Part shown: piece after piece, positions 29,476-60,559 of the stretch
Layout: each line of letters starts with the position of its first letter
How positions within the stretch are numbered: position 1 is the stretch's first letter
NCBI GenBank assembly: GCA_028289425.1
Contig: JANQPL010000014.1
Location: 1 to 64,000 of the forward strand
From: Alphaproteobacteria bacterium
GTDB taxonomy: Bacteria; Pseudomonadota; Alphaproteobacteria; JANQMY01
Direction: 5' to 3'
Length of the DNA: 64,000 nt
Notes under the pieces: generated by a model
What the model was told of the DNA's origin: nothing
The model's input: only the letters and a program-made list of their open reading frames with translations
Databases searched by the model: none
Position numbers and translations under genes: made by a program

Positions 29476-29522
29476 TGGCGTCCCCGGCAGGATTCGAACC
29501 TGCGACCCTCAGATTAGGAATC
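29476..29522 (-). pseudogene. tRNA-Arg(CCU) 3' fragment (attachment-site remnant)
   Basis: On the minus strand this is the anticodon loop TTCCTAA with anticodon CCU, a CAGA/TCTG stem, variable loop, the T arm GGTTCGAATCC, the acceptor half CGGGGAC, discriminator G and CCA. The D arm and 5' acceptor half are missing: sequence upstream (above 29525) is unrelated. It is therefore the 3' half of a tRNA gene. Its acceptor strand pairs with GTCCCCG of the 5' fragment at 31434, not with that of the complete tRNA at 43300. Confidence 0.8.
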
Positions 29523-29635
29523 TGTGCGAGCGCGGGGGGATTGGGCAAGTAGATCAATATCTTATCAGATTTGAACCACTAGCAAATACCGAGTAAGCAC
29601 CGAAAACAATATCTAACGCAATCCCTTAAACGAGA

Positions 29636-30409
29636 TTAGTCCATTGAATGTTGTTGGACAATTTGTTCGCCGTCTGCATGCGTCTCTAATGAGAAATCGG
29701 AGAAGAGCGCTGGAGCATCCTGTTTTACAATTTTTAGAAGGTTGCCGCAGACCATTCGCATTTCATAGTCACCTTCCAGCGATCCGCGCACGCTCAAGAA
29801 ATGACGAATTGCTCGAGCATTTGCCGTAACTACAATTGTTGTCGAAATCGCATTTGGCAAAACGCTTCTTGCAAGCGTCTTCTGCCAACGGCGATGTTCA
29901 GATCCAATATCTGAATTCCGTTTTGCAAACTCACTGAGCAAAGTGCGATAGGTATTTTGAATTGACTGAGTTGTTTTTTCCCATATGGCGGCTAGGTTTT
30001 TATCCTTTTGTAACCCGAAGGGAGCAACAAAAGCCGCTTCGCTTTCATCATGGTATTGTTGTGAAAGCTGACTAAATGCAAAACCAACGCGATGCCGGAC
30101 GAGTTGATGGGTAAACGCTCTGCTGACTCCGTCAATTATGAAAGTCCATGACACGTGTTCCAATACGCTTTCATGCCCTTTCGCTATGAGGTTAGCGATA
30201 TATTTATCTGTAGGGTAACGAATCCGCTTGGTATCTTCGTTGAATGACATGTAGCAAACGCGACCAGCGATTTCCGTGAGAAGCTCAGCAGGTTCAGCAG
30301 ATGCGTCTGTTTTCCAGGACATTGAGTTGTCCTTCAAAAATTCTCGAGCCGATTTGATATCGACGTTTGGTCGGGAAACTACATAGATCTTGAGAGTTTT
30401 CAGGTTCAT
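29636..30409 (-). CDS. thyX: FAD-dependent thymidylate synthase
   Basis: Makes dTMP from dUMP with methylene-tetrahydrofolate and FAD. The 257-residue protein carries the ThyX motif RHR (105-107) followed by eight residues and Ser116 (RHRVGFAFSQLS). SVLPNAISTTIVVTANARAIRHFL is the second dUMP/FAD-binding segment. Odd: the next conserved Arg (SQRY in most family members) is Gln118 here (SQQY). The start codon overlaps the stop of the dcd-like gene by four bases (ATGA), so translation is probably coupled. A ThyX on a mobile island next to a dCTP-deaminase-like protein suggests manipulation of the dUTP/dTTP pool rather than housekeeping. Confidence 0.9.
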   Translation of the reverse strand: MNLKTLKIYVVSRPNVDIKSAREFLKDNSMSWKTDASAEPAELLTEIAGRVCYMSFNEDTKRIRYPTDKYIANLIAKGHESVLEHVSWTFIIDGVSRAFTHQLVRHRVGFAFSQLSQQYHDESEAAFVAPFGLQKDKNLAAIWEKTTQSIQNTYRTLLSEFAKRNSDIGSEHRRWQKTLARSVLPNAISTTIVVTANARAIRHFLSVRGSLEGDYEMRMVCGNLLKIVKQDAPALFSDFSLETHADGEQIVQQHSMD

Positions 30410-31320
30410 TGACTATCCTGTTTGCCGGAATTTTCAATTAGTTCCTCTAGATTTTGGATGCGCGACTCCAGACCGACAATGTCGCCCCGTCTTTCAACAG
30501 AATCTATTCGGCTTTCGATGTTGGAAATCGTAGCGGACAGGTCAAGCTCCTTCCGAAACTCATCGCGACTCACGTTCCCACTTGATGCCACCAAGACCAC
30601 GCACACGCCCCCAACTATCGCGGATATTACGCTTGCAGCTGCCGGAAGGAGTATTTTCAACCGTTCAAACTGATCCAGCTTTCTATCCACCGCCGCACTT
30701 GCTGCAATATCCATCCGTTGCCCAAATGCCGCAAAATCCGGAGCCAGTCGATTTAGCAATTTGCCAATAGAGCTACTTTCAGTTGTTCCAGACCGCCGCT
30801 GTGAATAATCCGCTGCGCACAAAGAGCCAAGATCAAACACGAGGAGCGAAACGATGACTTCACCAATTTTAAGATTGTATGGTGTGCGCCCCATATTGAT
30901 AATTGTGAAAGATAGGTGACCAGAATAACCTGGATCAACATGCCCAGGATTTGTCATTAGGATCGAATTTCTCGAAACAGATGCTGGAGGAAATCCAAAA
31001 GCTCCGTAGCGACCACCCAGGGAAATTTTTTCTCGTGTTTCTATAAGAGCCGTTTGTCCCGGCTCAAGGCTTGTGCCAGTGCTATGTTCTAAATCTGCTG
31101 ATTGATCGCTCTCTCGCGAAGGGAAGGGCGGCGGCTTGTAAATATGCCCGATAGTCAGATCTAGGGAACTGGGTTGGACCGGACCGTCTTTTTCAAACTT
31201 CGCCGCTTCAGCAATATCAAAGCCGGTGTATCCTCCTGCTAAGCTCCGTACCTCTAGCGTAATTGCATTCGACTGAATCGCTTCCAAGATTGCTTGGTCA
31301 TTCAAAATTGCTGCCGACAT
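30406..31320 (-). CDS. dCTP deaminase/dUTPase-fold protein with membrane anchor and coiled coil
   Basis: 304 residues. About 45-165 matches the dCTP deaminase fold: PSSLDLTIG (50-58), VSRNSILM (115-122), HVDPGYSG (127-134) and KIGEVIVSLLVFDL (151-164). The Glu that activates water in dCTP deaminases (E. coli E138, in VLEFYN) aligns with Thr139 (SFTIIN). The Asp of the HVDPGYSG motif is kept. Residues about 223-246 form a membrane helix and 255-298 a coiled coil with heptads (IESRIDSVERR, LESRIQNLEELI). The typical enzyme ends near 190, so the tail is an addition. GGTGAG lies upstream of the ATG. It is coupled to thyX. Deamination activity is doubtful; dUTPase, sensing or a defence role are possible. 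Confidence 0.75.
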   Translation of the reverse strand: MSAAILNDQAILEAIQSNAITLEVRSLAGGYTGFDIAEAAKFEKDGPVQPSSLDLTIGHIYKPPPFPSRESDQSADLEHSTGTSLEPGQTALIETREKISLGGRYGAFGFPPASVSRNSILMTNPGHVDPGYSGHLSFTIINMGRTPYNLKIGEVIVSLLVFDLGSLCAADYSQRRSGTTESSSIGKLLNRLAPDFAAFGQRMDIAASAAVDRKLDQFERLKILLPAAASVISAIVGGVCVVLVASSGNVSRDEFRKELDLSATISNIESRIDSVERRGDIVGLESRIQNLEELIENSGKQDSQ

Positions 31321-31433: not shown

Positions 31434-31473
31434 GTCCCCGTAGCTCAGTCGGATAGAGCACTGGATTCCTAAT
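31434..31473 (+). pseudogene. tRNA-Arg(CCU) 5' fragment
   Basis: GTCCCCG acceptor strand, TAGCTCAGTCGGATAGAGC D arm, then CTGGATTCCTAAT through the anticodon CCU, where homology stops sharply and AT-rich sequence follows. The break lies in the anticodon loop, a usual crossover point for tyrosine integrases. It is the missing half of the tRNA fragment at 29476-29522 by acceptor-stem pairing, but lies on the opposite strand. The frameshifted integrase starts 144 bases downstream, so the old tRNA promoter now reads towards it. Confidence 0.8.
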
Positions 31474-31616: not shown

Positions 31617-32803
31617 ATGTCTGCTTCGAAAACGACCGCACGGCGCATGAAACTAACCAACGCTGTCATTGCAAAGTATCTTATTCCGCCTACAGAGGGA
31701 ATAAGCCAAACCACGATTTATGATACGGAAGTCATTGGCTTCGGCGCCTATCGGACATCAGAGAAACCTGGCAAGTATTTTTGTCAGTTTCGGATCGGTG
31801 GACGGCAACGCAAAAAGACCATCGCACCAGTGACAGAGATGAGTGTTGCCGACGCGCGAGACGAGGCAATCACTCTCAAGACGGCTCCCGCAGAGGCCAA
31901 GACATTATCCATGAACGCAAACTGGCGAGGGAAAGAGGTATTACGTTAGCTGAGGCCTACGAGGCTTTCATGGAGGCCCTAAGACGCAAAGGCGGATCGC
32001 AAACGACGATTAGAGGGTACTCATTCAATTGGCGCACAGGCCTTTCTACTTACGCATCGGTGACACTTGCCGACATCTCCAAAGCAGACATCAGGGGGTG
32101 GCACTCCAAATGGGGAAAACGAGGCCCAACGGCTGCAAATCATACCCTGCGTTTGTTTCGAGCCATCTACAATCACGCGCTCAGAACCACTGACGGCTTG
32201 CCGCCCAATCCATCCATCGCGGTTGATCCATTTCAGGAGCGGGCGCGCCGACCGTACTTGCCGTGGAAGGCGTTGCCAGCATGGCTGGCCGACGTTGAAC
32301 GATTGGAGAACCCGATCCGCCGCAATATGTGGCCCTTCCTACTCTATTCGGGTCTTCGGAAGAGCGATGCGGCGACCATTCTCTGGGACGAGGTCGGCGA
32401 AAACTCTATCCACAGACCGACACCAAAAGGTGGGCGTCTGAAAGCGTTTGACCTGCCTCTATCGGGCAAACTCACCGCGATTCTGGAAGATGCTCGCAAG
32501 GCCCACGAACTGCTGTTCCCCAGATCACCATTCGTCTTCCCGTCAAACAGCGCCTCCGGTCATGTGGAGACATTCCGCGAGAAAACCATTCCTCAAGTCT
32601 CACCGCACATGCTGAGACGCACTTTTGCCACCGCCTGTGTGGAAGCAGGTCTCGATCCCTACACCACCAAACGCTTGCTTAACCACACCGTAGCGCGAGG
32701 TGATGTGACGGCTCTTTATGTCCAGCAATCCTCGGGCTTTCTTCAGGAGCAAATGGAAAAAGTATCTTGTTACATAGATACCAAAGTGACTTTGTCGGCG
32801 TAG
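31617..32803 (+). pseudogene. int: Tyrosine recombinase/integrase, frameshifted
   Basis: Two frames together make one integrase. The first (31617 to about 31890) gives the N-terminal arm-binding domain: KLTNAVIAKYLIPPTEGISQ, YDTEVIGFGAYR, KYFCQFRIGGRQRKKTIAPV. The second (from about 31895) gives HERKLARERGITLAEAYEAFM, the core-binding domain and the catalytic domain with Arg in YSGLRKSDA, HMLRRTFA, LLNHT and the nucleophile Tyr in TALYVQQ. The frame changes by one base between 31880 and 31910 and the first frame stops at 31949. No slippery run is present, so a simple inactivating indel is most likely (or a sequencing error). It sits beside a tRNA fragment, as expected for an island integrase. 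Confidence 0.85.
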
Positions 32804-32831: not shown

Positions 32832-34928
32832 CTAAATCCCCCCATCAAAAGCCTCAATAAATTCCGACAAGGGTCGTACGCCGGAGAGGCACAAATGTTC
32901 GCGCGCTCGTGTGCAGGCGACGTAAAGAAGGTGCCGTTCGCTCGCATAAACCTCGTCCAACTCAGCTTCATCGGCCGCGTCTTCAATGCGAGATTGAAGA
33001 GGTAGCGCATCATCGTCGCAGGCCATCACCAACACCGCACGGTATTCAAGGCCCTTAGCCAAGTGCATGGTGCCGAGGTTGATTTTCTCTGACATGATTT
33101 CTTCGGCGCCGCTTAAGGTTTGTACTTCCTGTCCAACCTTGGCCAGCATGTCGCGGGCCCGTGGCAGGTAACTCCGGTCGCGGACGAACACGCCAATTTC
33201 GTTGGGCGCAGTGCCATCGTCGATCATTTTGGCAATCCAGGCAGAGGCCAGTGCTGCTTCCCCATCTTGCGTGTCTGCTCTTATCACATGAGGGGTGGGC
33301 CCATTGAACAAGGAAACCGTGCCTGTACGGCGGTCTTCGTTACCGTCCATGTCCCGCACGGCGCGCGGCAACAACTTGTCTGCGGCTTCACGAATTTGAT
33401 GGCTCGTGCGGTAATTTACTTTCAGTGTCGACGATCGGCCGCGAATGTCCACCCCGAGAGATTTCCACGAAAAAGGATGTTGAAAGATGCGCTGTCCCAA
33501 ATCTCCGGCGAAGAAAAGCGCGTTATCGGTATCGGGCGCAATAGCGGCGAGAAACTGCAACTCAGCGGGCCCAAGGTCTTGGGCCTCATCCACCACAATG
33601 TGTGAGTAGGGCTTGTCTGGCTTTGGTCCAAAATGGTCTGCCATTTCAACGAAAAGGGTAGACGCCGTCTTCATGCCTTTGCGTTCAATCGCTTGCCGCG
33701 TGCGTTCAAAAACTGGCCACAGCGTTTCCCGCTGCTTTCGGCCCACGCGGCTGCGCTTTCCCGTGCGCGTCACGTCAAGATAATCATCGATCGTTTTCAG
33801 ATGCCACCCATCGACGACATCGCGCCACTCGGTCCAGACGAAGCGTTCATCAAAGGCAGACAAGTCTGCTGATTCACGCGCCAAGATGGCCCTTACATCA
33901 TCTTCTTTAGCCACATAGGGTTCGCGCCCAAAGGTAAGGGTGTAAAGTTCTGCTGCAGCATCCACGAAGGACGCCACATTGATGCTCGGCACTATGCCCT
34001 TTTCGCCCCCGCTTAATATGGTCAGTTTACGTTTGAGGGAAGCCGCAAGTGGTCTTGAAAACGTGGTCAGCAAAACTTTTGCATTTGGCGCTTTGGCAAG
34101 CCGTTGTGCGCGATGCAGTGCCACCACTGTTTTACCGGTGCCGGCGGAACCGCCCACGCGAGCAGGGCCGCTAAAATCTTGCTCAACAATTTTCTGTTGG
34201 CTGGGGTGCAGGAAAACTGTCCACTGCTCCCAGGGGTATTCTAGGGCAGCCTCCAGTGCATCGCGCCCTTCCACCACGCGGAAGCGGCGCTGCGCATCTG
34301 GGTGAAGGGCTGCATCTTGGCTGTCTTCCACGATTGTTGGCAGCGGCGGCGCTTCGCCCACGGCAAAGGCCAATACGGCCTCTTGCGCTTCTTGCGGAAG
34401 GTGCGTGACAAGGTCCAGCAATTCGTCGGTCGTTGCCGCACACAACCGGTCCACCCATTGCGGCGGCACTCCATGGGTTAAGAGTTCATCGGAAGCCGTG
34501 TTCGCCAGTGGTGGTGGCTCACTTGGACCTGCTGCAACTTCATCCGGATCCGGAGCGTGATCAAAGGTGCCTGCAGAGACAAGTTCTCGTTTTTCGACGG
34601 TTTCCTCAACCTCAACGATTTGCAGCGCGCGCGTTTTGGGGTGCACCTCAAACATACGCCGCTCCGCCCAGGCATAGGCATCATCGTGGTGATCCACATA
34701 GCACAGCACCATGCGGTCCCCTTCCTTGTGAACGATCAGACGCACATCGCGGTTGGCACGAACCGACCAGAAGTTTTTGTCCTTTGAATTGTCGATGCGG
34801 TGGAAGGATTTACCTTCGCCCGCCGGGTCCATCTGAAGATCAAAGGCAGCCATCTTAGCGGCCTTTTGCGACTGGTTGTCGAGCTTGGTCAGCGCAGATT
34901 GAAAGGTGTCGGCGATGAGGAACTTCAC
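32832..34928 (-). CDS. UvrD-like helicase with RelE/ParE-like N-terminal domain
   Basis: 698 residues. About 1-95 resemble a RelE/ParE-type fold (FWSVRANRDVRLIVHKEGDRMVLCYVDHHDDAYAWAERR). After a charged linker come superfamily 1 helicase motifs: Walker A GSAGTGKTVVALHRAQRL (about 262), Walker B VDEAQDLGPAELQFLAAI (about 446), VNYRTSHQIREAA, and a C-terminal LLYVACTRAREHLCL. The first four bases overlap the zinc-ribbon gene upstream. Last gene of the res-mod operon. Such RelE-UvrD fusions occur in defence islands. The N-terminal part may be a regulatory or nuclease module. Confidence 0.8.
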   Translation of the reverse strand: MKFLIADTFQSALTKLDNQSQKAAKMAAFDLQMDPAGEGKSFHRIDNSKDKNFWSVRANRDVRLIVHKEGDRMVLCYVDHHDDAYAWAERRMFEVHPKTRALQIVEVEETVEKRELVSAGTFDHAPDPDEVAAGPSEPPPLANTASDELLTHGVPPQWVDRLCAATTDELLDLVTHLPQEAQEAVLAFAVGEAPPLPTIVEDSQDAALHPDAQRRFRVVEGRDALEAALEYPWEQWTVFLHPSQQKIVEQDFSGPARVGGSAGTGKTVVALHRAQRLAKAPNAKVLLTTFSRPLAASLKRKLTILSGGEKGIVPSINVASFVDAAAELYTLTFGREPYVAKEDDVRAILARESADLSAFDERFVWTEWRDVVDGWHLKTIDDYLDVTRTGKRSRVGRKQRETLWPVFERTRQAIERKGMKTASTLFVEMADHFGPKPDKPYSHIVVDEAQDLGPAELQFLAAIAPDTDNALFFAGDLGQRIFQHPFSWKSLGVDIRGRSSTLKVNYRTSHQIREAADKLLPRAVRDMDGNEDRRTGTVSLFNGPTPHVIRADTQDGEAALASAWIAKMIDDGTAPNEIGVFVRDRSYLPRARDMLAKVGQEVQTLSGAEEIMSEKINLGTMHLAKGLEYRAVLVMACDDDALPLQSRIEDAADEAELDEVYASERHLLYVACTRAREHLCLSGVRPLSEFIEAFDGGI

Positions 34929-35608
34929 AGCGTGAGTTCCATCTGTTTGTTAAGGTACATCCAATTTCTAATCTTATAATCCCTTGGTTCAATCCGTTGC
35001 GGATGTATCAGCGACATCTCAGAATTTCTAATAAGAACAATACTGCCAATTGAAACAACTTCCTCCGAAGACGTGAACTCAAACTGAATGGGAATGTCAT
35101 CTATTGCGTCTGTTATTCGTCCCCAAACGTTGACTTCCCAACCATTGCGATCAATTTGATCAACGACGACGTGTCGCCATTCACTGTTTGGATCGTGTTT
35201 CGAGATACCGCGATAAATACCCAACGAACTTGCTGCCTCAACAAGTTCAACTTTTTCTCCGCGTTTTCTTGGCGTAATTGCCGGACAGACATTTCTAACA
35301 GTATGTTCGTTTTGAAGACGGTGATCTGTACATGGATGCTTAGGCCACGGGGGCCCCAGGTCATCGAAATAAACCCGGCTCCCATAAGAATTTGCGTAAA
35401 AGAAAACTGTGCTTCCACATACTGGACACTTTGCATTTGGCTGAACGAAACAGGAAGAGGAGTAACTATTTGCGCCGAATTCTCGGAGGCACCTCCTGGC
35501 ATCCCTTTCGCTCAAGAAACTCCTAACTCGTTCGCGAGAGAGGCCAGCGCGGCCGTATTGTACGCACCAAGGACAAATGCAATCAGAGTAATGGTTGTGG
35601 CCAGCCAA
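34925..35608 (-). CDS. Zinc-ribbon hypothetical protein
   Basis: 227 residues, no confident family name. The N-terminal half holds Cys/His pairs: CICPWC near residue 10-15, then CPVCGSTVFFYANSYGSRVYFDDLGP followed by PKHPCTDH (in parts). This gives one or two zinc ribbons. The C-terminal half (about 105-225) looks like a small beta-rich domain (WEVNVWGRITDAIDDIPIQFEF). The gene lies between mod and the helicase with a 4-base overlap to the latter and 12 bases from mod, so it belongs to that operon. A DNA- or partner-binding accessory subunit is likely. Confidence 0.65.
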   Translation of the reverse strand: MAGHNHYSDCICPWCVQYGRAGLSRERVRSFLSERDARRCLREFGANSYSSSCFVQPNAKCPVCGSTVFFYANSYGSRVYFDDLGPPWPKHPCTDHRLQNEHTVRNVCPAITPRKRGEKVELVEAASSLGIYRGISKHDPNSEWRHVVVDQIDRNGWEVNVWGRITDAIDDIPIQFEFTSSEEVVSIGSIVLIRNSEMSLIHPQRIEPRDYKIRNWMYLNKQMELTL

Positions 35609-35620
35609 GAATACAACTCC

Positions 35621-38551
35621 TCAAACGCTGAACACCTTCATAACTTCATCCCCATAATGATTTATTACCTTCACGGCGATGCGGCCACTGTCGGGGCGCG
35701 GGAAGGAGCGGGAGGTGTCGCGGTAAAGGGTTTGCCAGGCTTCTTCGTTGATTTCGGCTTTCAGCGCTGTCTTGAGAGATTTGTACGGGTCGCCCGCGCC
35801 CAGGAAATAAGCGTGGCGCACAAAGAAGCTTTCTTCATTGTAATCATCATCAATAAACCAAGCGGCGATGTCCTGCGTGTCGCCATGGCGGATCTCACCG
35901 GTCGCCGGCACAAACACATCCATGCCTCGGATGGTGACGGTCAGGTCTTCGCCCTTTTCATTGATGGCAATGTCGGGCTCGCCAATCACCATGAACAAAT
36001 TGGCGTTCTTATCGCGGCGCAGATCTTCCGCCATATGAAGGTCGGGGTTCATCTTCGCCTTGATGATGCGCAAGGGGCCAAGCTTGGTTACGTCGCTGGC
36101 ATGGGCGTCGTATCCAAAAGCGCAGGCGATCAGAATGTCAAAGCGTGCTTCGGTGGCTTCACGCGCCGCGGCCATCAGGTCCGTGCGATGCAGGGTGCCA
36201 TATTCAGGGCCGATCATGATGGCGGCGCGTCGTTCGCTCTCCCCTTCCAGGAAGTGGCCTTCACCGCAAATCATGTCACCTGCCCAGGGCGCGATGTGGT
36301 TAAACGTTATGCGGTCTTCCTTGACCCCTTGCTGCACACCAGCGGTACGCAGGTTTTCGAGGATCACTTGAACGAAATCCACTTCGTCAGCAAGCGCGCT
36401 TCTGCGCTTTTTGGATTGGAGTTCGGGAAGAAAGTCGTCTTCGTCCATGGGCACCACGCGGTGGGGCGACAGGCTTTCGACCGTAAAGGGGCCCGCCACG
36501 CGCACACGCGATTTGTCTTCGTAAGGACGGTCATAAAGGAATTCCACGTCAGCCGCCCGTGCGATGGATTCGTCAATATCTTTTTGCCGCGCAATGCGCT
36601 GTTCCCACCACTGCGCATGGGCGTTTTTTGCATCGCTCGACCAGTCGTCAGCTGCATCTCGGGGGATTTCCCATTCTTCCCATGTTTCGCCGACGGCTTT
36701 GTTGAGCTGTTCGCGCAAAGGCTCAAGTTTTTCTTGATAGGTTTCCCAAATTACATCGATCTCCGCATTGTTGGCGATGGATTTGAGTGTGATGTGCGGT
36801 GCGCGCTCATAAACGAAGCCCTGTCGCACATCCCCAAAGGTTGTGCCTTCAATGGGTGGCTTGCCGGTGATTTCCGATTCTTTTTGTCGTCCGTCAGCTG
36901 AATCTTTGAGGTAATAGTACGGATACTTGGCGGCCATCAGCCGCTGCCGCGCAAGCGCCAATGCGACGCGGCTGGTATCTATGGTAATCCAGCGCCGCCC
37001 CCATTGTTCTGCGACCGTTGCCGTTGTGCCGGAGCCGCAGGTCGGATCAAGCACAAGATCGCCGGGATCAGTGACCATGAGAAGGCAACGCGCCACCAAA
37101 CCTTCATTCGTCTCTACGACGTACTTCTTATCGGTTGCACCTCCGAATTCTGTCCACACATTCGACAAGGCATAAACCTGGAAATCAGAGAACTTGCGTA
37201 GGTACCTTATCGCTGTTTTTTGTGGAATTACGCGCCCGCTAGCGATGAGGCGACGCATTCCTTCTTCACTGGTCTTCCAACGAGTTTGAAGTGTGGGTTG
37301 AAACGTCTTCCCAACGAAATTGACTGTGAACCATGAAGCCGCGCCTTCACCTTTCTGTCGTCCCATGCTGGCAGATTGGAGATCACTGGCTGTTGCGAAG
37401 TCTGAGCCAGCTTGCAAGGAATCAGGCGATCCGAGTTCGGTTTTTGTCGCCGGGCGTAAGATGCCACCTGGTTCAACGACTTGTCTGTAATGAAACCCTC
37501 CCTCTGCTCCTGGAGTCTTTTTTTTGTAAATCGCTCGGTACTTGGCCGCAGATCGGTCTTTTGTATACCAAACCAAATAGTCCGCGACCCCCGATATGAG
37601 ATCGTTTGTAGACGAGGTCGTTTTTGTAACAGTAATTTCGCTGGCAAAGTTTTCTTCTCCAAAAACTTCATCCATCACTGTACGGACGCGATGCACGTTT
37701 TCGTCACCGATTTGTACAAAGATGGACCCGGAATCGGTCAGCAAGTCGCGCATCACGGTGAGGCGGTCGCGCAAATAAGTGAGATAAGAATGGATGCCGT
37801 CTTTCCACGTGTCGCGGAACGCTTTCACTTGTTCTGGCTCTCTGGTGAGACTATCGAGCTTTCCGTCCTTTACATCGCGCGAACGGGTTGAGACCTGCCA
37901 ATTGGAGTTGAATTTGATGCCATAAGGTGGGTCGAAATAGATTGCTTGCACTTTCCCGCGCAGTTTTTCCCGTTCCGCCAAGGATGCCATGACCTGTAAG
38001 GAATCGCCCAAAATCATGCGGTTCGACCAGTTCTGGTCGTGTTCGTAAAACTCGGTTTTGGCTTCCGCATCAATGCCGTTAAAATCGGAGAATAAGTCCG
38101 GCGCGTCTTGCTCGTCCTTACGCTTTGAGCGCTTCACCAAATCATCGATCAACGCTTTGGGATGGATCTTCTCTTGCACGTAAATCGGCGGGACATTGAC
38201 GACGAGGTCCGACCAGTCCTGATTGTCTTTGCCGCGCCAGGTGAGCTGCGCATCACCAATTTCGATGGAGCCCGTCTCTGCCAGTTGGGCACGCTGTTCT
38301 TCCGTCAGCGTTATTTTGATGCCGTTCCAAACAATCTGTGGGTCCAGATCTTGTTCCCGTTCCCGCACCTCACCCTCTGCCAAGGGCCGCGCGCGGGAAT
38401 AGGCCACCGGTTTTTGTGGCGTGATTTCCTCTAACCGCTCATTGATCGCCTGAAGCTCCGCCGTTGGAATATTCCGCCGCTTTGCTTCTTCATGGGTGAG
38501 CGTTTCGACTTGCTTTTTCTTTTTGGTAGTTCGGGGCGTTCTTTTGGCCAT
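35621..38551 (-). CDS. Type III-like DNA methyltransferase (Mod)
   Basis: 976 residues. The catalytic motif DPPY (FDPPYGIKFNSNW) is near residue 209 and the AdoMet motif DPTCGSGTTATVAEQWGRRW near 500. This order (DPPY before the AdoMet site) is the class-beta arrangement of type III Mod and N6-adenine methyltransferases. The N-terminal 170 residues are a charged, helical extension (KRTPRTTKKKKQVETLTHEEA) and about 570-976 is a long C-terminal region of unknown fold. It lies downstream of res and an orphan gene, the reverse of the usual mod-res order. GGAAG precedes the ATG. Confidence 0.88.
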   Translation of the reverse strand: MAKRTPRTTKKKKQVETLTHEEAKRRNIPTAELQAINERLEEITPQKPVAYSRARPLAEGEVREREQDLDPQIVWNGIKITLTEEQRAQLAETGSIEIGDAQLTWRGKDNQDWSDLVVNVPPIYVQEKIHPKALIDDLVKRSKRKDEQDAPDLFSDFNGIDAEAKTEFYEHDQNWSNRMILGDSLQVMASLAEREKLRGKVQAIYFDPPYGIKFNSNWQVSTRSRDVKDGKLDSLTREPEQVKAFRDTWKDGIHSYLTYLRDRLTVMRDLLTDSGSIFVQIGDENVHRVRTVMDEVFGEENFASEITVTKTTSSTNDLISGVADYLVWYTKDRSAAKYRAIYKKKTPGAEGGFHYRQVVEPGGILRPATKTELGSPDSLQAGSDFATASDLQSASMGRQKGEGAASWFTVNFVGKTFQPTLQTRWKTSEEGMRRLIASGRVIPQKTAIRYLRKFSDFQVYALSNVWTEFGGATDKKYVVETNEGLVARCLLMVTDPGDLVLDPTCGSGTTATVAEQWGRRWITIDTSRVALALARQRLMAAKYPYYYLKDSADGRQKESEITGKPPIEGTTFGDVRQGFVYERAPHITLKSIANNAEIDVIWETYQEKLEPLREQLNKAVGETWEEWEIPRDAADDWSSDAKNAHAQWWEQRIARQKDIDESIARAADVEFLYDRPYEDKSRVRVAGPFTVESLSPHRVVPMDEDDFLPELQSKKRRSALADEVDFVQVILENLRTAGVQQGVKEDRITFNHIAPWAGDMICGEGHFLEGESERRAAIMIGPEYGTLHRTDLMAAAREATEARFDILIACAFGYDAHASDVTKLGPLRIIKAKMNPDLHMAEDLRRDKNANLFMVIGEPDIAINEKGEDLTVTIRGMDVFVPATGEIRHGDTQDIAAWFIDDDYNEESFFVRHAYFLGAGDPYKSLKTALKAEINEEAWQTLYRDTSRSFPRPDSGRIAVKVINHYGDEVMKVFSV

Positions 38552-38573
38552 ATTACTTCCGATAATACCTCGC

Positions 38574-39278
38574 CTACGAATGTAGAAACTCTAGAAATAC
38601 CTTTTGGTGACTATCAACAATGTTTTGTGCAGAAGACATAAGCCCTCTATCGGCGCTTTCTTCGAGCCAGGTAAGATTGTCTTTGATGGCTTTTCTTTGA
38701 TTTGCATCCGTTAAGCCAAGTATCCACAACGCCTTGTCGATAACTCTAGTGCCGTAGAGACCATGCGGTTGCATTTCTTGATTAAGCAAGTGAGATAGCT
38801 CGTCAAAACCACGCTGATCTAGCGAGCAATAATAGGCCTGGGCTCGAACAGTTGGTCCACCGCTACAAATCCCAAGGGCATCTGCAGCTTGACTGTCAAA
38901 CCGTGTCCAATCAGTCGGAGATAGAAACCAGGCTAGTTTCGAAACGAGAGAAACCGGGCGGCCGGTTGCCCCTTTTTCGAAAATCTCTTCGGCGGCGCGG
39001 TTGCAAATGTTTGCTTTGAAAGATAGGTCGCCTTCGCTCCACCTGTCGTCAACCAGCTCGTTGACGGTCGTTGCGACAAAAGATCGAAGGCTTTTAACTT
39101 CCTTCGGCAATTGACGCGCAACTTTGTATTCCGCCGCTGCCTCTGCAACCAGGTCAGCCGTAAAGCCGCCTTTTGAAACCTCTAGAAGAAACCTTTTGTC
39201 ACTTCTATTTCGCGGGTTTTCATTGAAGGTTTTCGCGTGTTCTGCGACGGCTGCAAGAACTAGATTTCTTGAATTCAC
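38574..39278 (-). CDS. Hypothetical protein between res and mod
   Basis: 234 residues, mostly helical, no family recognised. Segments: AAVAEHAKTFNENPRNRSDKRFL, KLAWFLSPTDWTRFDSQAADALG and ALWILGLTDANQRKAIKDNLTWLE. The FLSPTDWTRFD segment resembles motifs in orphan proteins of restriction and abortive-infection loci. Start is GTG 39278, three bases after the res stop, with GAAGGCGAAG upstream, so translation is coupled. Conserved position inside a Res-Mod operon suggests a subunit or regulator of the complex. Confidence 0.65.
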   Translation of the reverse strand: MNSRNLVLAAVAEHAKTFNENPRNRSDKRFLLEVSKGGFTADLVAEAAAEYKVARQLPKEVKSLRSFVATTVNELVDDRWSEGDLSFKANICNRAAEEIFEKGATGRPVSLVSKLAWFLSPTDWTRFDSQAADALGICSGGPTVRAQAYYCSLDQRGFDELSHLLNQEMQPHGLYGTRVIDKALWILGLTDANQRKAIKDNLTWLEESADRGLMSSAQNIVDSHQKVFLEFLHS

Positions 39279-39281
39279 TTG

Positions 39282-42200
39282 TTACTTCGCCTTCATCTCT
39301 AGATTCTTCACCAGCTCGGCAAACTCTTTTTCCATGCCGAACACTTCTGTGAACTCCTCAAAAGCCCAACGTCCGAAACGGTGGAGATTGTTAACACCAG
39401 GGACCCAAAGCTCGTTCATCGTTTGTGCTTTGAGTTTTGCGTCTTCATCGCGATAGCCCTTAACTTCGAGGATTAGGTTGAGCGGCTCTATTTCTCCTCG
39501 GCCATCATCCAGGCGCACAATAAAATCTGGCACATAGCGGCGCGTGACCGGTCCGTTTCTGTAAGGCACGTCGAAACCAAGACCTTGGTTCTTAACGTAA
39601 GACAAGACCTTTGGGTGTTCTTCGCAGATGCGCGCGAGTTCTGCTTCCCAGGTTGAATCTTCAACCACGTGGCTCACATGGCAACGCTTGGCGTCGGTAA
39701 CAAAGCATGGCTTTGAGGTGGTGAAGTTAACGAAGCGCGTATCCCCTTCTGGATTGAAAGTATCGATAACAGCCGTAACTCTGTTTTCTCCATCAACGGT
39801 TTTCTGGCATGCAAGGAAAATGCGTTCGCATGCTTTATCAATGACACCGGGCCACGTTACCATCGCAGGAAAAGTACCAGCTGCTTCGCAGACCAGGTAT
39901 TCTTGATCAAGCCATTGAGTGACCACGCGCTTCACCTGTGGAAAGAGAGACATGTTCATGCCGCCCTCATCTTGATACTTGGTTGCCAACAGATGTTTGG
40001 TCAGACGAAAAGCAATGGAATTGGGGCGAGCATATTCATCAAGCGGCGCCTCAGGCGACATGATTTGTTGCTCGCCAACTACACCGGACATGTACGTTTT
40101 AGTAGCGCCGATTTCAGATGGATTTAACCGAAACTTCGAGTCTTCTGTGAACTGAGCGGTTATTTGTTCATCTGGCAATGCGGTACGATACCCTTCTACG
40201 CGAGGAAACCGAATGGCGAGGTGAGCACGTTCTCGCCGAGCCTGAACGCGCGTAACAGGTTTGGGGGCGGTTGGAGGGGCAACGGTGGCCTTCGCCGTGA
40301 AGTCAAAGGGGATGCCCATAATGTCAGCATACTCCACATCGAAAAGGCCATCCTGATTGAGCTCATAACTTTTGCGTCGCAACCCACGCCCGACCACTTG
40401 TTCGCACAAGAGCTGGGTGCCGAACGCTCGCACCCCTAGAATGTGAGTGACGGTGTTGGCATCCCACCCTTCCGTCAGCATAGAAACAGAGACAACACAC
40501 CGAATTGATTCACCTAAGCGACCTTTTTCACCGACCGTATTCATGACCTCGCGCAACAGGTCTTCATCGGTGATCTTGACCTCGCCGGGTGCGCCCTCGC
40601 GTTGGATCTTTTCCTGCCGAAACTGTTCAATTTCTGGGGCTAGTGCAGCGCGAAACGCAGGATCGAGCCCCTCTCCCGTGTCTATCTGGGCTGAGTCAAT
40701 GAGGAGTGTGTTTGGTTTTTCGAGCCGTTGATTGAATTCATCATAATTGTTGAACAGCTTTAATTGACCGGGAACCACCTTAGCGGGCTCTTTTTCTGTT
40801 TCTGGCGTTTCATAACCGGCAATCCAGTCATGCACGATTTGTGATGTGGTGGTGTTGTTGCACACCACGATAAAGACCGGTGGCACTTCGTGCCCCATGG
40901 CGCGCCATTGTTCATCGGTTTTTTCGTAGTGGGCATAAAGAGAGCGCAACGCTGTGATGAGGGGCGTGACTTCGGCCAATGCTTCCGGATTGCCGCCGCC
41001 GCTTTTGGCGCGTCCTTTCTTGGGAAGCTTCTTCCCAATGTGATCCCAAAGGTTTCGGTAAATAGGTTTGCCATCAAGCGTGGGCATATTGTCGAGAATG
41101 GGCACGCGCGGCAGTTTGACGATGCCGCATTCGATCGCATCCATCAACGAAAAGTCTGTGATTGTCCATGGGAACAAGGTCCCCTCGCGATAGCCAGATC
41201 CGCGTAAGAAAAAGGGGGTGGCTGACAAGTCGTAAATCGCGCGCACGCCGATTTTTCGTTTTGCTGTTTCAATGCCGCTGATCCATAGGCGGGCTGCTTC
41301 GTTATTCTCTTTCGCCTCCTTTTTGTCATCTCCCTTCGATTCTTTGACATCATCCGTACCCGGTTTTTCACGGTAGCAATGGTGCGCCTCATCATTGATG
41401 ACGACAATGTTTTTCATGGTGAAAAGGTCGCCGATTGAACGGCGCAACATTTCGCCCTCGGTTTCTAAGGTATTGACCTTTTCCTGTCGGCGACCTTCTA
41501 TAGCGGCCCGTGTTCCCTTTGAGAGTTTTGTTGTCTCACGTCTTTGAAATGCGTGGTAATTGGTGACCACCACTTTGGCTGCTGTGATGTCGTGCATCAA
41601 ATCGGATGGCACCAGTTCGCGTTTCTCGTAGTAGCTGTCTGGGTCCGAAGGATCGAGCACGCGCAATCGATCACGAATGGTGATACCCGGCGCGATGATC
41701 AGAAACCCTTTTGAATAGGATTTGGAAGAGGGGGCGCGGACTGCATTGATGGTCTGCCACGCAATTAACATGGCCATCACGGTCGTTTTGCCCGCACCAG
41801 TGGCCATTTTCATGGCAAGGCGAAAAAGAGCGGGGTTGGATTCAACATTTCCGCCTTCGAGATGGTCCCAGATTCGCTTGTATTGACGCTGCCCACGGGC
41901 GACTTCCGTGAGCCAAATAATCGTTTCCGCTGCCTCTCGTTGGCAAAAGAAGGGCTTAATGGAAGCAAACTTGTGGCTGCGCCAATGGTCGAGCAGCCGG
42001 CGGGTTGCCGGCGTGACGCCCCAGTCGCCCGAATTCGGCAATTCGCGCCAACTTTTTACGTGTTGCCGAATTTCATTGATGATAGGCGTTGGGTTGTATT
42101 GCTGATCCGCCTCATCAAGCATATCCCGCTGGGCATCATTCTTTCGCGTACGCTTGGCTTTTGGAACTGGCGTGTAAAGGTCCGATCTGCGACGTTCCTC

Positions 42201-42311
42201 GCGCGGCTGCTCTTCCGTCGGTTGCCCGTTTTCATCTAGCACATGATGGCGCGTTGGCTCGTCATAGGGCGAATTCAGAATGGGGTGCTTGAAGAAGTCT
42301 ATCTTTGTCAT
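39282..42311 (-). CDS. Type III-like restriction helicase-nuclease (Res)
   Basis: 1009 residues, superfamily 2 translocase plus nuclease. Walker A KMATGAGKTTVMAMLIAWQ (about 170), DEAH box VINDEAHHCYREK (about 307), LSATPFFLRGSG, and VSMLTEGWDANTVTHILGVRAFGTQLLCEQVVGRGLRR (in parts: VSMLTEGWDA and CEQVVGRGLRR). The C-terminal PD-(D/E)xK nuclease shows PDFIVRLDDG (about 929) and LILEVKGYRDED (about 945). Leads the operon. No clear ribosome-binding site precedes ATG 42311, so its start is less sure. Confidence 0.88.
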   Translation of the reverse strand: MTKIDFFKHPILNSPYDEPTRHHVLDENGQPTEEQPREERRRSDLYTPVPKAKRTRKNDAQRDMLDEADQQYNPTPIINEIRQHVKSWRELPNSGDWGVTPATRRLLDHWRSHKFASIKPFFCQREAAETIIWLTEVARGQRQYKRIWDHLEGGNVESNPALFRLAMKMATGAGKTTVMAMLIAWQTINAVRAPSSKSYSKGFLIIAPGITIRDRLRVLDPSDPDSYYEKRELVPSDLMHDITAAKVVVTNYHAFQRRETTKLSKGTRAAIEGRRQEKVNTLETEGEMLRRSIGDLFTMKNIVVINDEAHHCYREKPGTDDVKESKGDDKKEAKENNEAARLWISGIETAKRKIGVRAIYDLSATPFFLRGSGYREGTLFPWTITDFSLMDAIECGIVKLPRVPILDNMPTLDGKPIYRNLWDHIGKKLPKKGRAKSGGGNPEALAEVTPLITALRSLYAHYEKTDEQWRAMGHEVPPVFIVVCNNTTTSQIVHDWIAGYETPETEKEPAKVVPGQLKLFNNYDEFNQRLEKPNTLLIDSAQIDTGEGLDPAFRAALAPEIEQFRQEKIQREGAPGEVKITDEDLLREVMNTVGEKGRLGESIRCVVSVSMLTEGWDANTVTHILGVRAFGTQLLCEQVVGRGLRRKSYELNQDGLFDVEYADIMGIPFDFTAKATVAPPTAPKPVTRVQARRERAHLAIRFPRVEGYRTALPDEQITAQFTEDSKFRLNPSEIGATKTYMSGVVGEQQIMSPEAPLDEYARPNSIAFRLTKHLLATKYQDEGGMNMSLFPQVKRVVTQWLDQEYLVCEAAGTFPAMVTWPGVIDKACERIFLACQKTVDGENRVTAVIDTFNPEGDTRFVNFTTSKPCFVTDAKRCHVSHVVEDSTWEAELARICEEHPKVLSYVKNQGLGFDVPYRNGPVTRRYVPDFIVRLDDGRGEIEPLNLILEVKGYRDEDAKLKAQTMNELWVPGVNNLHRFGRWAFEEFTEVFGMEKEFAELVKNLEMKAK

Positions 42312-43223: not shown

Positions 43224-43300
<77 letters not shown>

Positions 43301-56421: not shown

Positions 56422-57537
56422 TTGACAGATATCGACCTACATCGCCGGCCCTCAGAGAATGCGAAATTCATAGCTGGGTTGTTGTGTAAAGGGATGCAGC
56501 CCACAAATGATGCCCGCTTCGTTCTGGAGAAACTCTACAACTTTAAACCCGGATTTGTTCACGGTTCTGTCTTCCTACTTGACGGTAGACGCCCGATAAA
56601 TACTGCAGTCTTAGAGCGGTTTGTGCTCAACAATGATGCGCCCGTGCTAGAATACCAAAATGGGCGCTTTCAGGTCTCGTATAATGGAACCAAAAGATCC
56701 TGCGATCCGCTTCCACAGCCAAATTGTCTATCTGATGTGATAGAGGGTTTCGGCCCAGCTTACACTCTCGCGCAGATGCATAGCCCGACAACTCTTTTTC
56801 TGACTCCGCTTCGCGAGTGTATCTTTGCAGTGAAGGGCGAAATCTGTTCTTTCTGCAACTTCGAAGGAAAGAAAATGAATCCTGCCCGGCCAGACTCAGT
56901 GGCAGACGTGGTAAGGAAGGTAACGCTTGAACTCAACGTCAACCTACATATTGCTATCGGTAGTGGCACACCGAATTTGAACGACGGGGGGGCCAAATAT
57001 TTCTCATCGATAGCTCGTGCCATTTCGAACGTCACGCCACTACCTATTTCAATCGAAATGATACCGTTTGCAGAAACAAGGTATCTTTACGATATGAGAG
57101 ATGCCGGCGTGCGCTCAGTGATTTCCAGCATTGAAATTTGGGATGACGTGAGGCGCAAAAAATACTTGCCCGGCAAATCACGAATCAGCAAATCGACCTA
57201 CAATGAGTTTTGGCAAAAGGCTACCAGAGCATTCGGTCGCGGTCAGGTAAGCTCGGTGCTGATTGCTGGTTTGGATACAGTCGATAGCGTTAAGCAGGGA
57301 ATTGATGAACTTATTGAGATCGGTGTAATTCCGACGATAATACCGTTTCGCCCCTATGACGGAGTTGCGCTGGCCGACCATCCAGTATGCCCAATTGAGG
57401 ACTACATCAGCGCTGCAAGTTACAACGCGATTCAGCTTTATCGATCAGAGCTTTCGCCAAAGATGCAAAGTGGTTGTACAAGTTGTCAGGGGTGCTCACT
57501 GGATGACCCAAGCGAAGTGCTCGAATTTGTTCACTGA
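56422..57537 (+). CDS. Radical SAM protein (MSMEG_0568-like family)
   Basis: 371 residues from TTG 56422 (AAGGA upstream). The [4Fe-4S] motif is C133-x8-C142-x2-C145 (CIFAVKGEICSFC), unlike the usual CX3CX2C. A second set, C352-x2-C355-x2-C358 (CTSCQGC), near the C-terminus could hold an auxiliary cluster. Segments GSGTPNLNDGGA, FGRGQVSSVLIAGLD and GVIPTIIPFRPYDG match, as I recall, the MSMEG_0568/TIGR04043 radical SAM family, members of which occur in nitrilase-containing nitrogen-starvation clusters. It converges on the AdoMetDC-like gene (13 bases apart), and its partners are probably the opposite operon. Confidence 0.75.
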   Translation: MTDIDLHRRPSENAKFIAGLLCKGMQPTNDARFVLEKLYNFKPGFVHGSVFLLDGRRPINTAVLERFVLNNDAPVLEYQNGRFQVSYNGTKRSCDPLPQPNCLSDVIEGFGPAYTLAQMHSPTTLFLTPLRECIFAVKGEICSFCNFEGKKMNPARPDSVADVVRKVTLELNVNLHIAIGSGTPNLNDGGAKYFSSIARAISNVTPLPISIEMIPFAETRYLYDMRDAGVRSVISSIEIWDDVRRKKYLPGKSRISKSTYNEFWQKATRAFGRGQVSSVLIAGLDTVDSVKQGIDELIEIGVIPTIIPFRPYDGVALADHPVCPIEDYISAASYNAIQLYRSELSPKMQSGCTSCQGCSLDDPSEVLEFVH

Positions 57538-57549
57538 CCAGGAAGTATT

Positions 57550-57939
57550 TCAATCGGGATTGCTGCAATAATTGGCGTTGTCGGATCTATCTATGATTTT
57601 GTACTTAATGTTTGTGGGTTGAAACACTGACAAACTATTCACCAACTCACCCACTCTGATTGGCGCACAGCTGTATAAATCAAGTTGAAACTCCGTGGGT
57701 ATTACTTCGTCCCAAAAGTGTGCCACTACATGGCTGGTTGTAATTAGCGCCATAACAGTGATTCCCCGGTTCCCCGGCGCTTGAGAATACTTGGCTATCG
57801 GCTCGGCAAGGAGGCTCATGTTTTGACTCTCTACGACACCAATCATCCAAGTTCTTGCGGTGGCGGTTTTCATTGGCGGCGAGAAACACTGACCTTTCAT
57901 AATTAGATGATTGTGAATCAAGCTACTTTGTTTTCGCAT
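57550..57939 (-). CDS. Small S-adenosylmethionine decarboxylase-like protein
   Basis: About 129 residues from ATG 57939 (GGTGAG upstream; a TTG start at 57978 is also possible). HNHLIMKGQC at the N-terminus, GNRGITVMALITTSHVVAHFWDE in the middle (the SH of the pyruvoyl-forming site, ESHISIHTWPE type in SpeH) and EFQLDLYSCAPI at the end (VDVFTCG type) match small AdoMetDC-fold proteins. The autocleavage residue pair reads T-S instead of E-S. A real AdoMetDC yields decarboxylated AdoMet, the aminopropyl donor for spermidine. Last gene of the operon. Confidence 0.7.
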   Translation of the reverse strand: MRKQSSLIHNHLIMKGQCFSPPMKTATARTWMIGVVESQNMSLLAEPIAKYSQAPGNRGITVMALITTSHVVAHFWDEVIPTEFQLDLYSCAPIRVGELVNSLSVFQPTNIKYKIIDRSDNANYCSNPD

Positions 57940-58013
57940 TGAAGCAATCTCACCATTCGCCTGCGTACAACTCGTCAACTTAGATGCAGAGCCCTATTCC
58001 TATTGGCCTGCTG

Positions 58014-58715
58014 TTAAGGAGATTCAAAAAAGTTGGCGCACCACTTTGAGAACAAATCTGCGTCGAGTTGCTCCGTATCATCAGTTCGAAGCGTCGCGTC
58101 TATTGCAGGGTCGTGTTCAAGCAATTTTTCCAAGTACAGAAGGTCGATTTCGGGATGCATTTGTGTCGAGAGAATCTGGCTTCCCTTGACCACCAATGCA
58201 TTTCTAGCGCCCCTGCAGTCTGCGAGGCACTCAAGGTCTTCTGGCAACTCGACGACTTCCTCATTATGCAATGCCGTCAAGTTGAGATTTTTCCTCGGTT
58301 GCATATATTCTTTGTACTGTTTTATGATTAACTTTCGGGAGCCTATGTTCCATCCACTTTCTGCTTTCGCTACAACTCCCCCTAGTGCCTTACATATAAC
58401 TTGGTGACCAAAACAGATCCCTAGCATCTTGACTGAATTCTGATCGCAGTAGTTCACTATACTACAAAGGTCTTGCACACTGGCGGTGTTCGAGTTCACT
58501 GAACGGGGACTTCCGGTAATTATAATTCCTCGATAGTCAGGCAAACTTTTTGGTCGCTCCCCTGAGGAGACGTCAAAAAGATCGAGTCTTTCCGAAAATT
58601 TCGTGTCTCCAAAGAAATCCCTAAAGCGATCAAAGTCTTGAGGGAACTGAGGACCCAGCCCCTCTATGTGCTCATTAAAAGATTGGAGCACTGCAATTCT
58701 TTCATGACTTCTCAC
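58014..58715 (-). CDS. Class I glutamine amidotransferase-like hydrolase
   Basis: 233 residues, GATase1 fold. The catalytic triad is complete: C101 in GICFGHQV, H187 and E189 in TQMHPEIDL. It opens with HERIAVLQSF and TGSPRSVNSN. There is no synthetase domain. In gamma-glutamyl amine pathways (Puu) a class I amidotransferase-fold protein (PuuD) hydrolyses the gamma-glutamyl bond, and this protein sits 22 bases after a glutamine-synthetase-like ligase. Start is GTG 58715, without a strong RBS. Confidence 0.82.
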   Translation of the reverse strand: MRSHERIAVLQSFNEHIEGLGPQFPQDFDRFRDFFGDTKFSERLDLFDVSSGERPKSLPDYRGIIITGSPRSVNSNTASVQDLCSIVNYCDQNSVKMLGICFGHQVICKALGGVVAKAESGWNIGSRKLIIKQYKEYMQPRKNLNLTALHNEEVVELPEDLECLADCRGARNALVVKGSQILSTQMHPEIDLLYLEKLLEHDPAIDATLRTDDTEQLDADLFSKWCANFFESP

Positions 58716-58737
58716 ACCACAGGACCCTAGTTCTTAT

Positions 58738-59829
58738 TCACAACAACTGCGCTAACCCACGTTTAGTTATTAGTGACCAATTAAGGGCGGAAAGGTCGGC
58801 TTCGTTGTATCTTTTGCAAGCTTCTTCAAACGTGTTGGACAGTTTTATGGTTCCCGACATTTTGTTGGCACCCTTGTAAAACGTAATTCCATGAACTCCA
58901 CTTGCGATCAAACTGGTCAGTATACTGTATACGTTGGCGGTGTTGTCGGGTATTCTAAACTCGAACCTTTGGTCTCGTTTCACATGTCTAATTGCTGCGT
59001 TTCGTGTCTCATCGGATACACCGGCGGCTAATTCGAGCCACGTATTTTTCATTCCCTCATCATGAAGCCGATCGTAAGAGCCAACTGACGGACAATAGAT
59101 AAGTTGGCAACGGTTGCACCAACTTATTACTCCGTTGGCAAATTTTTTTGAGCACTCTGGGTTTGATGCGTTGGGTAACCAATTCTCTGACACGCTGAAA
59201 TTCACATGTAGCCCGCTGCCGAATTGACCAACACTCGGTTTTGGTGAAAAATCAATCTTCAGCTGGTGCTTCCGCGCAATCACTGACAATATAGCTTTAG
59301 AGATAACAAGATTTGCAGCTGCAGAATAGGGGTCAGTCGCGGTAAAGCTAACTTCAAATTGGTGAACACCTCCCTCTGCGTGAAATGTCTCGACACCCAA
59401 TTGCAGCTCTTCGGCGTTTGCCAGAAAATCTGAGATGGTCTCACTGACTTCAAATTGACGATCTAACTTGTATGCATGAACTCCGGGGGGATCTCGGTCT
59501 TTTTTCCCTGAACTCGGAAACAAATAAAACTCAAGCTCAAGGCCTATTCGTACATCAATGCCGAGCAAATCAAGTTTCCCAATCTGGTCTAACAAGGCGG
59601 ACTTGGGACAGAATGGCGTTTCGGACACACAAGAGACCAATTCCGTATTGGGAAATAATGATGTGGACCTTTTGTGTAGTCCATCGGAACGAATGCGAAA
59701 GTCTCGGTCTTTTTCAGACAGCCCCAAGCGATCTACGGAAGATGGTGTGAGGTAAACTTCATCTGTCGACTTAGACGTTAATTTGCCGATTGCATCGCCA
59801 GATCCATTGACAGCCCAAAATAGTCTCAT
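58738..59829 (-). CDS. Glutamine-synthetase-like gamma-glutamyl ligase
   Basis: 363 residues. GS catalytic-domain motifs are present: GLELEFYLF (98-100, Glu ligands), EGGVHQFEVSF (152, 159), GSGLHVNFS (His), and FEFRIPDNTANVYSILTSLIASGVHGI. The N-terminal beta-grasp domain is shorter and diverged. True GS is about 450 residues or more. It is nearer to the PuuA/GlnA3-like amine ligases, which glutamylate amines with ATP. Directly follows SDR, followed by the GATase: an ATP-dependent gamma-glutamylation and its reversal. Confidence 0.8.
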   Translation of the reverse strand: MRLFWAVNGSGDAIGKLTSKSTDEVYLTPSSVDRLGLSEKDRDFRIRSDGLHKRSTSLFPNTELVSCVSETPFCPKSALLDQIGKLDLLGIDVRIGLELEFYLFPSSGKKDRDPPGVHAYKLDRQFEVSETISDFLANAEELQLGVETFHAEGGVHQFEVSFTATDPYSAAANLVISKAILSVIARKHQLKIDFSPKPSVGQFGSGLHVNFSVSENWLPNASNPECSKKFANGVISWCNRCQLIYCPSVGSYDRLHDEGMKNTWLELAAGVSDETRNAAIRHVKRDQRFEFRIPDNTANVYSILTSLIASGVHGITFYKGANKMSGTIKLSNTFEEACKRYNEADLSALNWSLITKRGLAQLL

Positions 59830-59830
59830 G

Positions 59831-60559
59831 CTAACAATATGTAACTTTGTACACTTGTTTTAGCGGAAGTACATTTAATTTGTGCACGAATAAACTTTTG
59901 TACGAGGACAAAGAAAAACATAAATCGGCGAGTTCGCTAGTTGCAATCAATGCGCCGTCTGACTCGGATACAACGCGTTCTGGATCGGCGTCGTATTGGT
60001 GGGAATGGCTCGATACGTCAGCCGGGCTTACGATTACGACCCGGCAATGTCCAAGGTTGTCTTTTTGGAGGGCGACCGCAAATCCCTCGATAGCCTTTTT
60101 TGCTGCAATAAAACTCGCGAGTCCGGGGTTCTCGGGAAACCCCCAATCAGCAGATACTTGGTAAACTAAAGGCGAGATGCTGCTATTACGCAAAACTATT
60201 TTGGTAAGATTTATCGCTCCGAGGACTCCAGCTTCAAAGAGATTTGCTGTCTCTTCAATTTCAGTATCAACAGCAGCCCCCTCAACATAACCGAATGCAC
60301 CGCTCCAAAGCACGTCAATCAGTCCGTTTGCCTTCACAAACTTCTCAATATTGCGATTGACAAGATCGAAGTCTCTAATATCCACATCTATGGTTGTTGA
60401 TGTACCACCGAGCTTGGTAATATCCGATGCGGTTTGTTCGAGGCCATCTCGGTTTCTCGCCAAAAGTCCCACGTGATAGCCTTCGCTTCCAAATCTCACT
60501 GCTATAGCGCGACCAATTCCGTAACTGGCGCCAGAAACAACAATATTCTTCGCACTCAT
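59831..60559 (-). CDS. SDR-family protein with Phe in place of the catalytic Tyr
   Basis: 242 residues from ATG 60559, with AGGAAGG upstream (a longer start would overlap the FAD gene). Rossmann nucleotide site SGASYGIG (9-16). The catalytic Ser136 (VSADWG) is present, as is Lys154, but the Tyr of YxxxK is Phe150 (ASFIAAKKAIEGF), and the NNAG motif reads WSGAFG. This should weaken or abolish standard SDR redox chemistry. It may have a changed reaction or a structural role. In the same operon as the oxidase and ligase. Confidence 0.82.
   Translation of the reverse strand: MSAKNIVVSGASYGIGRAIAVRFGSEGYHVGLLARNRDGLEQTASDITKLGGTSTTIDVDIRDFDLVNRNIEKFVKANGLIDVLWSGAFGYVEGAAVDTEIEETANLFEAGVLGAINLTKIVLRNSSISPLVYQVSADWGFPENPGLASFIAAKKAIEGFAVALQKDNLGHCRVVIVSPADVSSHSHQYDADPERVVSESDGALIATSELADLCFSLSSYKSLFVHKLNVLPLKQVYKVTYC

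Follow-up and report, generated by a model that had tools for sequence, protein, structure and literature searches.

A co-inherited pair of a DCD-like membrane protein without the catalytic glutamate and a divergent ThyX, a candidate anti-phage module

A gene for a membrane protein with the dCTP deaminase (DCD) fold is coupled to a gene for a ThyX-family thymidylate synthase on a mobile island, and sequence comparison of their relatives indicates that the two are a co-inherited module. The two-gene cassette is rare but widely scattered. Judged from its genomic context, the pair probably has a role in defence, and the balance tips slightly towards the more specific reading of a two-gene anti-phage module that would work by sensing the nucleotide pool.

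The gene pair and the island that carries it

The window, i.e., the whole stretch of 64,000 nucleotides that was analysed, comes from contig 18 of a 5.4-Mb genome. In the window, both genes are on the minus strand, and the last four bases of the DCD-like gene are also the first four of the ThyX gene (Table 1). This overlap had been described in an initial annotation made from the sequence, and the ORF coordinates bear it out. The same annotation had assigned the two products to the DCD fold and to ThyX, in agreement with the Pfam matches.

Table 1. Positions of the gene pair, of its functional sites and of neighbouring features in the window.
Feature	Positions	Strand	Evidence
DCD-like membrane protein gene, 304 aa	30406-31320	-	PF22769 E 8e-13 (Pfam); Foldseek best 2qlp_D, E 5e-11
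DCD/dUTPase-fold domain, residues 1-170	30811-31320	-	Pfam, AlphaFold2 model, Foldseek
Thr139 codon (catalytic Glu position of DCDs)	30904-30906	-	alignment to solved DCDs
Predicted transmembrane helix, residues 227-245	30586-30642	-	hydropathy peak
C-terminal helix, likely coiled coil, residues 252-300	30421-30567	-	secondary structure of AlphaFold2 model
ThyX-family gene, 257 aa	29636-30409	-	PF02511 (Thy1) E 1e-47; TIGR02170
ThyX signature RHRVGFAFSQLSQQY, residues 105-119 (one residue more than the Mycobacterium ThyX signature)	30053-30097	-	
Gln118 codon, in place of M. tuberculosis ThyX Arg107	30056-30058	-	
tRNA-Arg(CCT) 3' half, left end of outer island	29476-29525	-	
tRNA-Arg(CCT) 5' half, left end of inner nested island	31436-31473	+	
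Tyrosine-integrase gene, two overlapping frames (frameshifted)	31617-32803	+	Pfam
Neighbouring defence-type genes: UvrD-like helicase, type III methyltransferase, type III restriction enzyme	32832-42311	-	Pfam, PADLOC

The pair had also been placed on a mobile island, and tRNA-Arg(CCT) half-genes on either side of the pair and a frameshifted tyrosine-integrase gene confirm this. The tRNAs of the source genome were checked by stretches, and matching halves were located outside the window, at 84442-84478 (minus strand) and 69672-69717 (plus strand) of contig 18. We read the halves as the marks of two nested insertions, with sizes of about 55 kb (outer) and about 38 kb (inner). The outer island carries the pair as cargo at its left end. 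The inner island is probably immobile ("stuck"), because its integrase gene is frameshifted.

Some further observations concern the island as a whole. Two tRNA-Arg(CCT) genes are split at the anticodon loop by the insertions, and a complete tRNA-Arg(CCT) lies inside the nested insertions (43224-43300). By eye, an integrase-like gene is present at the far end of the outer island, and radical-SAM-like, amidotransferase-like, glutamine-synthetase-like, SDR and FAD-oxidoreductase genes stand in a row at 56422-62082, possibly forming a small biosynthetic cluster. The two proteins encoded at 34928-35608 and 38577-39278, next to the helicase and type III restriction genes, had no Pfam match above the cut-off and no PADLOC match.

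Sequence features of the two proteins

The DCD-like protein shares its fold and domain order with dCTP deaminases and bifunctional dCTP deaminase-dUTPases (PF22769; 2qlp, 4xjc), and 4xjc was also the best match in a PDB profile search (E 2e-18). In contrast to these enzymes, it has no catalytic Glu. The alignment with solved DCDs confirmed that Thr139 occupies the position of this residue (Glu138 in E. coli), as had been noted from the sequence, and among the 15 family members the position is taken by Thr (10), Tyr (4) or Cys (1), and never by Glu. The phosphate loop is altered as well, with FP(P) in place of the Arg-Ser-Ser loop of solved DCDs, and there is a new signature, MTNPGH(V/I)DPG(Y/F)xG. 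Within it, MTNPGH, DPG and the subsequent Gly are invariant in 15/15 members, and so is Asp129 in the dUTPase-like HVDPGY stretch. Against TIGR02274, the dCTP deaminase equivalog, the protein scored 50.8 bits, below the cut-off of 92.8.

Compared with dCTP deaminases, the DCD-like protein further gains a membrane helix and a coiled coil. The helix had been predicted initially and coincides with a hydropathy peak, and a strong hydrophobic stretch follows the DCD-like domain in all 15 family members. Of the proposed coiled coil, the long C-terminal helix is present in the AlphaFold2 model, and the coiled coil itself is likely. The model, a monomer, is only moderate (pLDDT 73, pTM 0.55). Pfam detected no PF00383 zinc deaminase domain in either the DCD-like protein or ThyX, and PADLOC has no model for either.

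The ThyX of the pair passed the TIGR02170 equivalog cut-off (153 bits vs 87.9). The strict ThyX motif is RHRxxSxNxxSxRY. The system ThyX departs from it: in its motif, RHRxGFxxSQLSQQY, the Arg that precedes the final Tyr is replaced by Gln and the length is greater by one residue, whereas the other recognisable ThyX motifs (those listed for L080-L159) end in Arg-Tyr or Arg-Phe. With M. tuberculosis ThyX (PF02511; 3gwc) the system proteins have the whole fold in common, including the RHR and the positions of Ser105, Tyr108, Arg172 and Arg199, and 10 of the 12 tested positions are identical in 17/17. They differ from it by Gln in place of Arg107 (17/17), by the extra residue after the RHR, and by the position of His203, which varies among the 17. 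According to passages in PMC9571937, M. tuberculosis Arg107 bonds the uracil C4=O and the phosphate, and it is counted among the conserved dUMP contacts of ThyX in a section of PMC6514825. A C4 carbonyl can be bonded by Gln as well, so that the system ThyX may still be using dUMP.

In a tree with 44 other ThyX, a branch supported at 100/98 set the 17 system proteins apart as a clade of their own. The residue changes in the DCD-like protein and in ThyX hold across phyla. These 44 were drawn from 77 loci, the rest being without a frame of 180-420 aa carrying the motif; this motif filter could shape the contrast, and the motif list for L080-L159 shows the same split.

The source genome encodes one ThyX, that of the pair, and one ThyA, ruling out the possibility, raised at the outset, that this ThyX is its sole thymidylate synthase. 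ThyA was found in 7/14 and ThyX in 11/14 of the genomes of the relatives. All 11 hosts of a system ThyX have a second thymidylate synthase, which is ThyA in G385, G386, G387, G395 and G396, and another ThyX gene in G388, G389, G391, G392, G393 and G394.

Recurrence, co-inheritance and genomic surroundings

A scan of one genome per species yielded 14 relatives of the DCD-like protein, from Hoeflea, another Rhizobiales, Mycobacterium, Acidobacteria, Verrucomicrobia, Neiella and two further proteobacterial fragments. A ThyX gene lies within 3 kb in 11/14; in the remaining three (L042, L049, L050) the contig ends at or near the DCD-like gene. The initial annotation had looked to co-occurrence in defence islands as a check and to absence of the pair from other islands as evidence against it; the pairing does recur, on mobile elements and among defence genes. 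ThyX follows downstream on the strand of the DCD-like gene in 8 of these 11 loci, and in L040, L044 and L046 it lies 1-2 kb off on the opposite strand. In one of the 8, L047, the DCD-like gene and ThyX are separated by a small ORF that has, by eye, a hydrophobic stretch, and the DCD-like domain and its anchor seem to be split there.

A viral scan with the ThyX profile identified five members with the Gln-type motif. Four of them are in P2-like prophages, directly behind an integrase gene and the DCD-like gene, and the fifth starts at a contig end. Two further viral scans for partners returned only loci already in the set. The distances of the DCD-like protein and ThyX were correlated (r 0.85, n=14 loci, 0/10000 permutations as high), also with only one P2 member retained (0.80, n=11). 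L044, L047 and L081 were left out of this comparison, having no full DCD-like row in the alignment.

Weak matches were left out of the family (in 140 of the 141 genomes with matches, even the best E was no better than 2e-9), and so were most short matches, with frames of dUTPase size. Three DCD-like matches from the viral scan (L077-L079) were rejected as members, with 25% identity and, by eye, the look of ordinary dUTPases. Of 5426 complete E. coli genomes, TUM12355 alone had the pair at the sensitivity used, and in samples of 396, 392 and 360 genomes it occurred only in the centre genome. Frequency therefore gives little power.

Defence genes and mobile elements surround the pair, though not every copy. 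A PDC-S41 candidate adjoins ThyX in L046, an EVE-domain type II restriction protein is encoded upstream in L041, and in L038 the pair adjoins a CARF6 protein, followed farther out by an ORC/CDC6-like ATPase and a calcineurin-like protein. Six loci are acidobacterial, and in four of them (L040, L043, L045, L046) the pair is accompanied by a NUDIX gene, which in L045 has a WGR domain and a PDC-S07 match and in the other three was named by eye, and by a gene that we call X. Gene X appears MazG-like by eye (325 aa in L045, 40% identical in L046); neither Pfam nor PADLOC gave a match for it, and it shows no similarity to the neighbour of L182. Near some copies, e.g., L037 and L048, no defence annotation was seen by eye. 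Most bacterial copies are not obviously in prophages.

Four P2-like proviruses have the order CI repressor, integrase, DCD-like gene, ThyX (names by eye), with the pair co-directional with the repressor and integrase, and the same order is annotated in the prophage of E. coli TUM12355 (NZ_CP134376.1), where the proteins of the pair are WP_053891068 and WP_053891067. We inspected the slot next to the P2-like integrase in 18 E. coli regions, of which 12 were 12 of 24 rows spread over 196 genomes and the other 6 came from best matches. The slot held the pair in one region, an annotated anti-phage dCTP deaminase in two, GapS1, a protein with a defence role, in one, and only unnamed proteins in 14. 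Five of these unnamed proteins, from four regions, had no PADLOC match. As a side observation, the cargo between integrase and prophage end varies among E. coli P2-like prophages (L161-L165, L188-L199) and is mostly an unnamed protein of about 190-410 aa. It is possible that the slot is a little-charted hotspot of defence genes. Portions of PMC9122126 and PMC9519451 describe other defence hotspots of P2-like phages; the former puts its E. coli P2-like hotspot near cos, and the latter adds a locus also holding the fun gene, which may or may not be this slot.

More distant relatives share modified pyrimidine nucleotides as a common theme. In provirus L075 (5917-8560), a DCD-like membrane protein gene faces a ThyA-family gene with a PfkB kinase gene behind it. 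Relative to the ThyA of the source genome, this synthase has Asp for Asn177 and keeps the catalytic Cys. In thymidylate synthase, the change of Asn177 to Asp shifts the substrate from dUMP to dCMP, according to an excerpt of PMC8670742, and the T4 counterpart is given as Asp179 in part of PMC6400193. Taken with the Gln of the system ThyX, Asp177 would therefore mean that two unrelated folds changed at the residue reading the C4/N3 edge, a lead that comes from one ThyA-type locus. In L075, the only such case, the synthase is encoded on the strand opposite to the DCD-like gene, so that it may be a phage gene without any link to it.

The loci L009, L170, L180-L183 and L186 represent a second DCD-like membrane protein family, in which a C-terminal hydrophobic helix is visible by eye. 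Merging it with the first was rejected, as it has neither the MTNPGH signature nor ThyX in its short flanks. L170 is beside a MazG with MazG_C and a 5-hmdU kinase helical domain, L183 beside a 5-hmdU kinase helical domain, and L182 beside DUF1643; L184 has a zinc deaminase. ImmA/IrrE-like genes, named by eye, also occur beside this second family.

Proposed mechanism, alternatives and significance

We propose that the DCD-like protein keeps the oligomeric pyrimidine-nucleotide-binding fold, drops catalysis and would serve as a sensor, held at the inner membrane by one helix and the coiled coil. A non-catalytic sensor is very probable. ThyX would be a working flavin enzyme with shifted pyrimidine recognition, possibly from dUMP to a cytosine or otherwise modified deoxynucleotide; a shifted substrate is a tentative element of the proposal that falls just short of an even call. 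The enzyme would make or remove the ligand read by the sensor, the direction being conceivable either way. A phage that distorts the pool would then change the state of the ligand, upon which the DCD-like protein would damage the membrane or halt growth and so protect against phage. Whether it is such a membrane effector we consider evenly balanced. Taken together with the membrane anchor, the mobility, the redundancy with host enzymes and the defence-rich setting, a sensor and an enzyme of this kind point to a phage alarm. In a bolder and doubtful version, ThyX would be a flavin-dependent C5-methylase of deoxycytidine or of a phage-modified nucleotide, and its product or substrate would act as an alarm nucleotide, sensed by an inactive dCTP deaminase that would then open the membrane; the Asp177 of the L075 synthase is a lead in this direction.

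The main rival to the phage alarm is toxin-antitoxin-like action, with the DCD-like membrane protein as toxin and ThyX restraining it by binding, its catalysis being secondary. The short overlapping or adjacent genes of most copies, the strong co-inheritance and the membrane helix with coiled coil would all suit such an arrangement. However, ThyX keeps nearly all FAD and substrate residues, which a pure antitoxin would not need, and in the three loci with ThyX on the other strand the two genes are 1-2 kb apart, so that we consider this explanation unlikely. It is equally improbable that the pair is an accessory thymidylate supply, a mobile dTMP pathway that aids replication of the element or host while the DCD-like protein only anchors or regulates. 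ThyX does score above the NCBIfam thyX cut-off, and the reactions of DCD and ThyX adjoin one another in pyrimidine metabolism, but another thymidylate synthase is already present in 11/11 hosts, the DCD-like Glu is gone throughout the family and the Gln is fixed in all system ThyX.

The initial annotation had drawn an analogy with nucleotide-depleting dCTP deaminases, and this analogy found no support. The known anti-phage enzyme of the P2-like slot (AvcD type, PADLOC dCTPase) belongs to the PF00383 zinc dCMP/cytidine deaminase family, which is unrelated in fold to DCD. It shares the nucleotide theme and the prophage slot with the pair but is a single enzyme acting on the pool, with no sequence relation to either protein. 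An active dCTPase/dUTPase that, with ThyX, alters dCTP/dTTP during infection would fit the DCD/dUTPase Pfam matches and the invariant Asp129; set against the missing Glu and the replacement of the Arg-Ser-Ser loop by FP(P), it is highly unlikely. Depletion through the DCD-like protein's own catalysis appears unlikely because the catalytic Glu is missing, and nucleotide sensing, not depletion, is the favoured reading. Slightly less probable than depletion is lysogenic conversion unrelated to other phages, e.g., tuning of the pool for prophage induction: the co-directional arrangement with CI repressor and integrase is what it would predict, yet most bacterial copies are not evidently prophage-borne and known anti-phage genes occupy the same slot.

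Burroughs et al. reportedly predicted nucleotide-modifying defence systems in 2015. Sections of the DefensePredictor study of 2026 list dUTPase, MazG and aGPT-Pplase as predicted defence domains and report an experimentally validated defence system with a thymidylate synthase, its type unspecified in the text (PMC13092281); the text contains 0 matches for ThyX and 0 for deaminase. The pair is therefore a variant of a known theme, and no description of it was found in open-licence PMC papers.

If the phage-alarm reading is true, it would mean that bacteria put dead nucleotide enzymes to new use as alarms at the membrane, and ThyX, a known drug target and housekeeping enzyme, would gain a second job. 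The Arg-to-Gln exchange provides a directly assayable single-residue hypothesis on ThyX, and the E. coli P2-like prophage offers a defined two-gene cassette for testing the sensing of phage-made pool changes. Should the C5-methylase and alarm-nucleotide version hold, the pair would represent a new class of nucleotide-signal defence.
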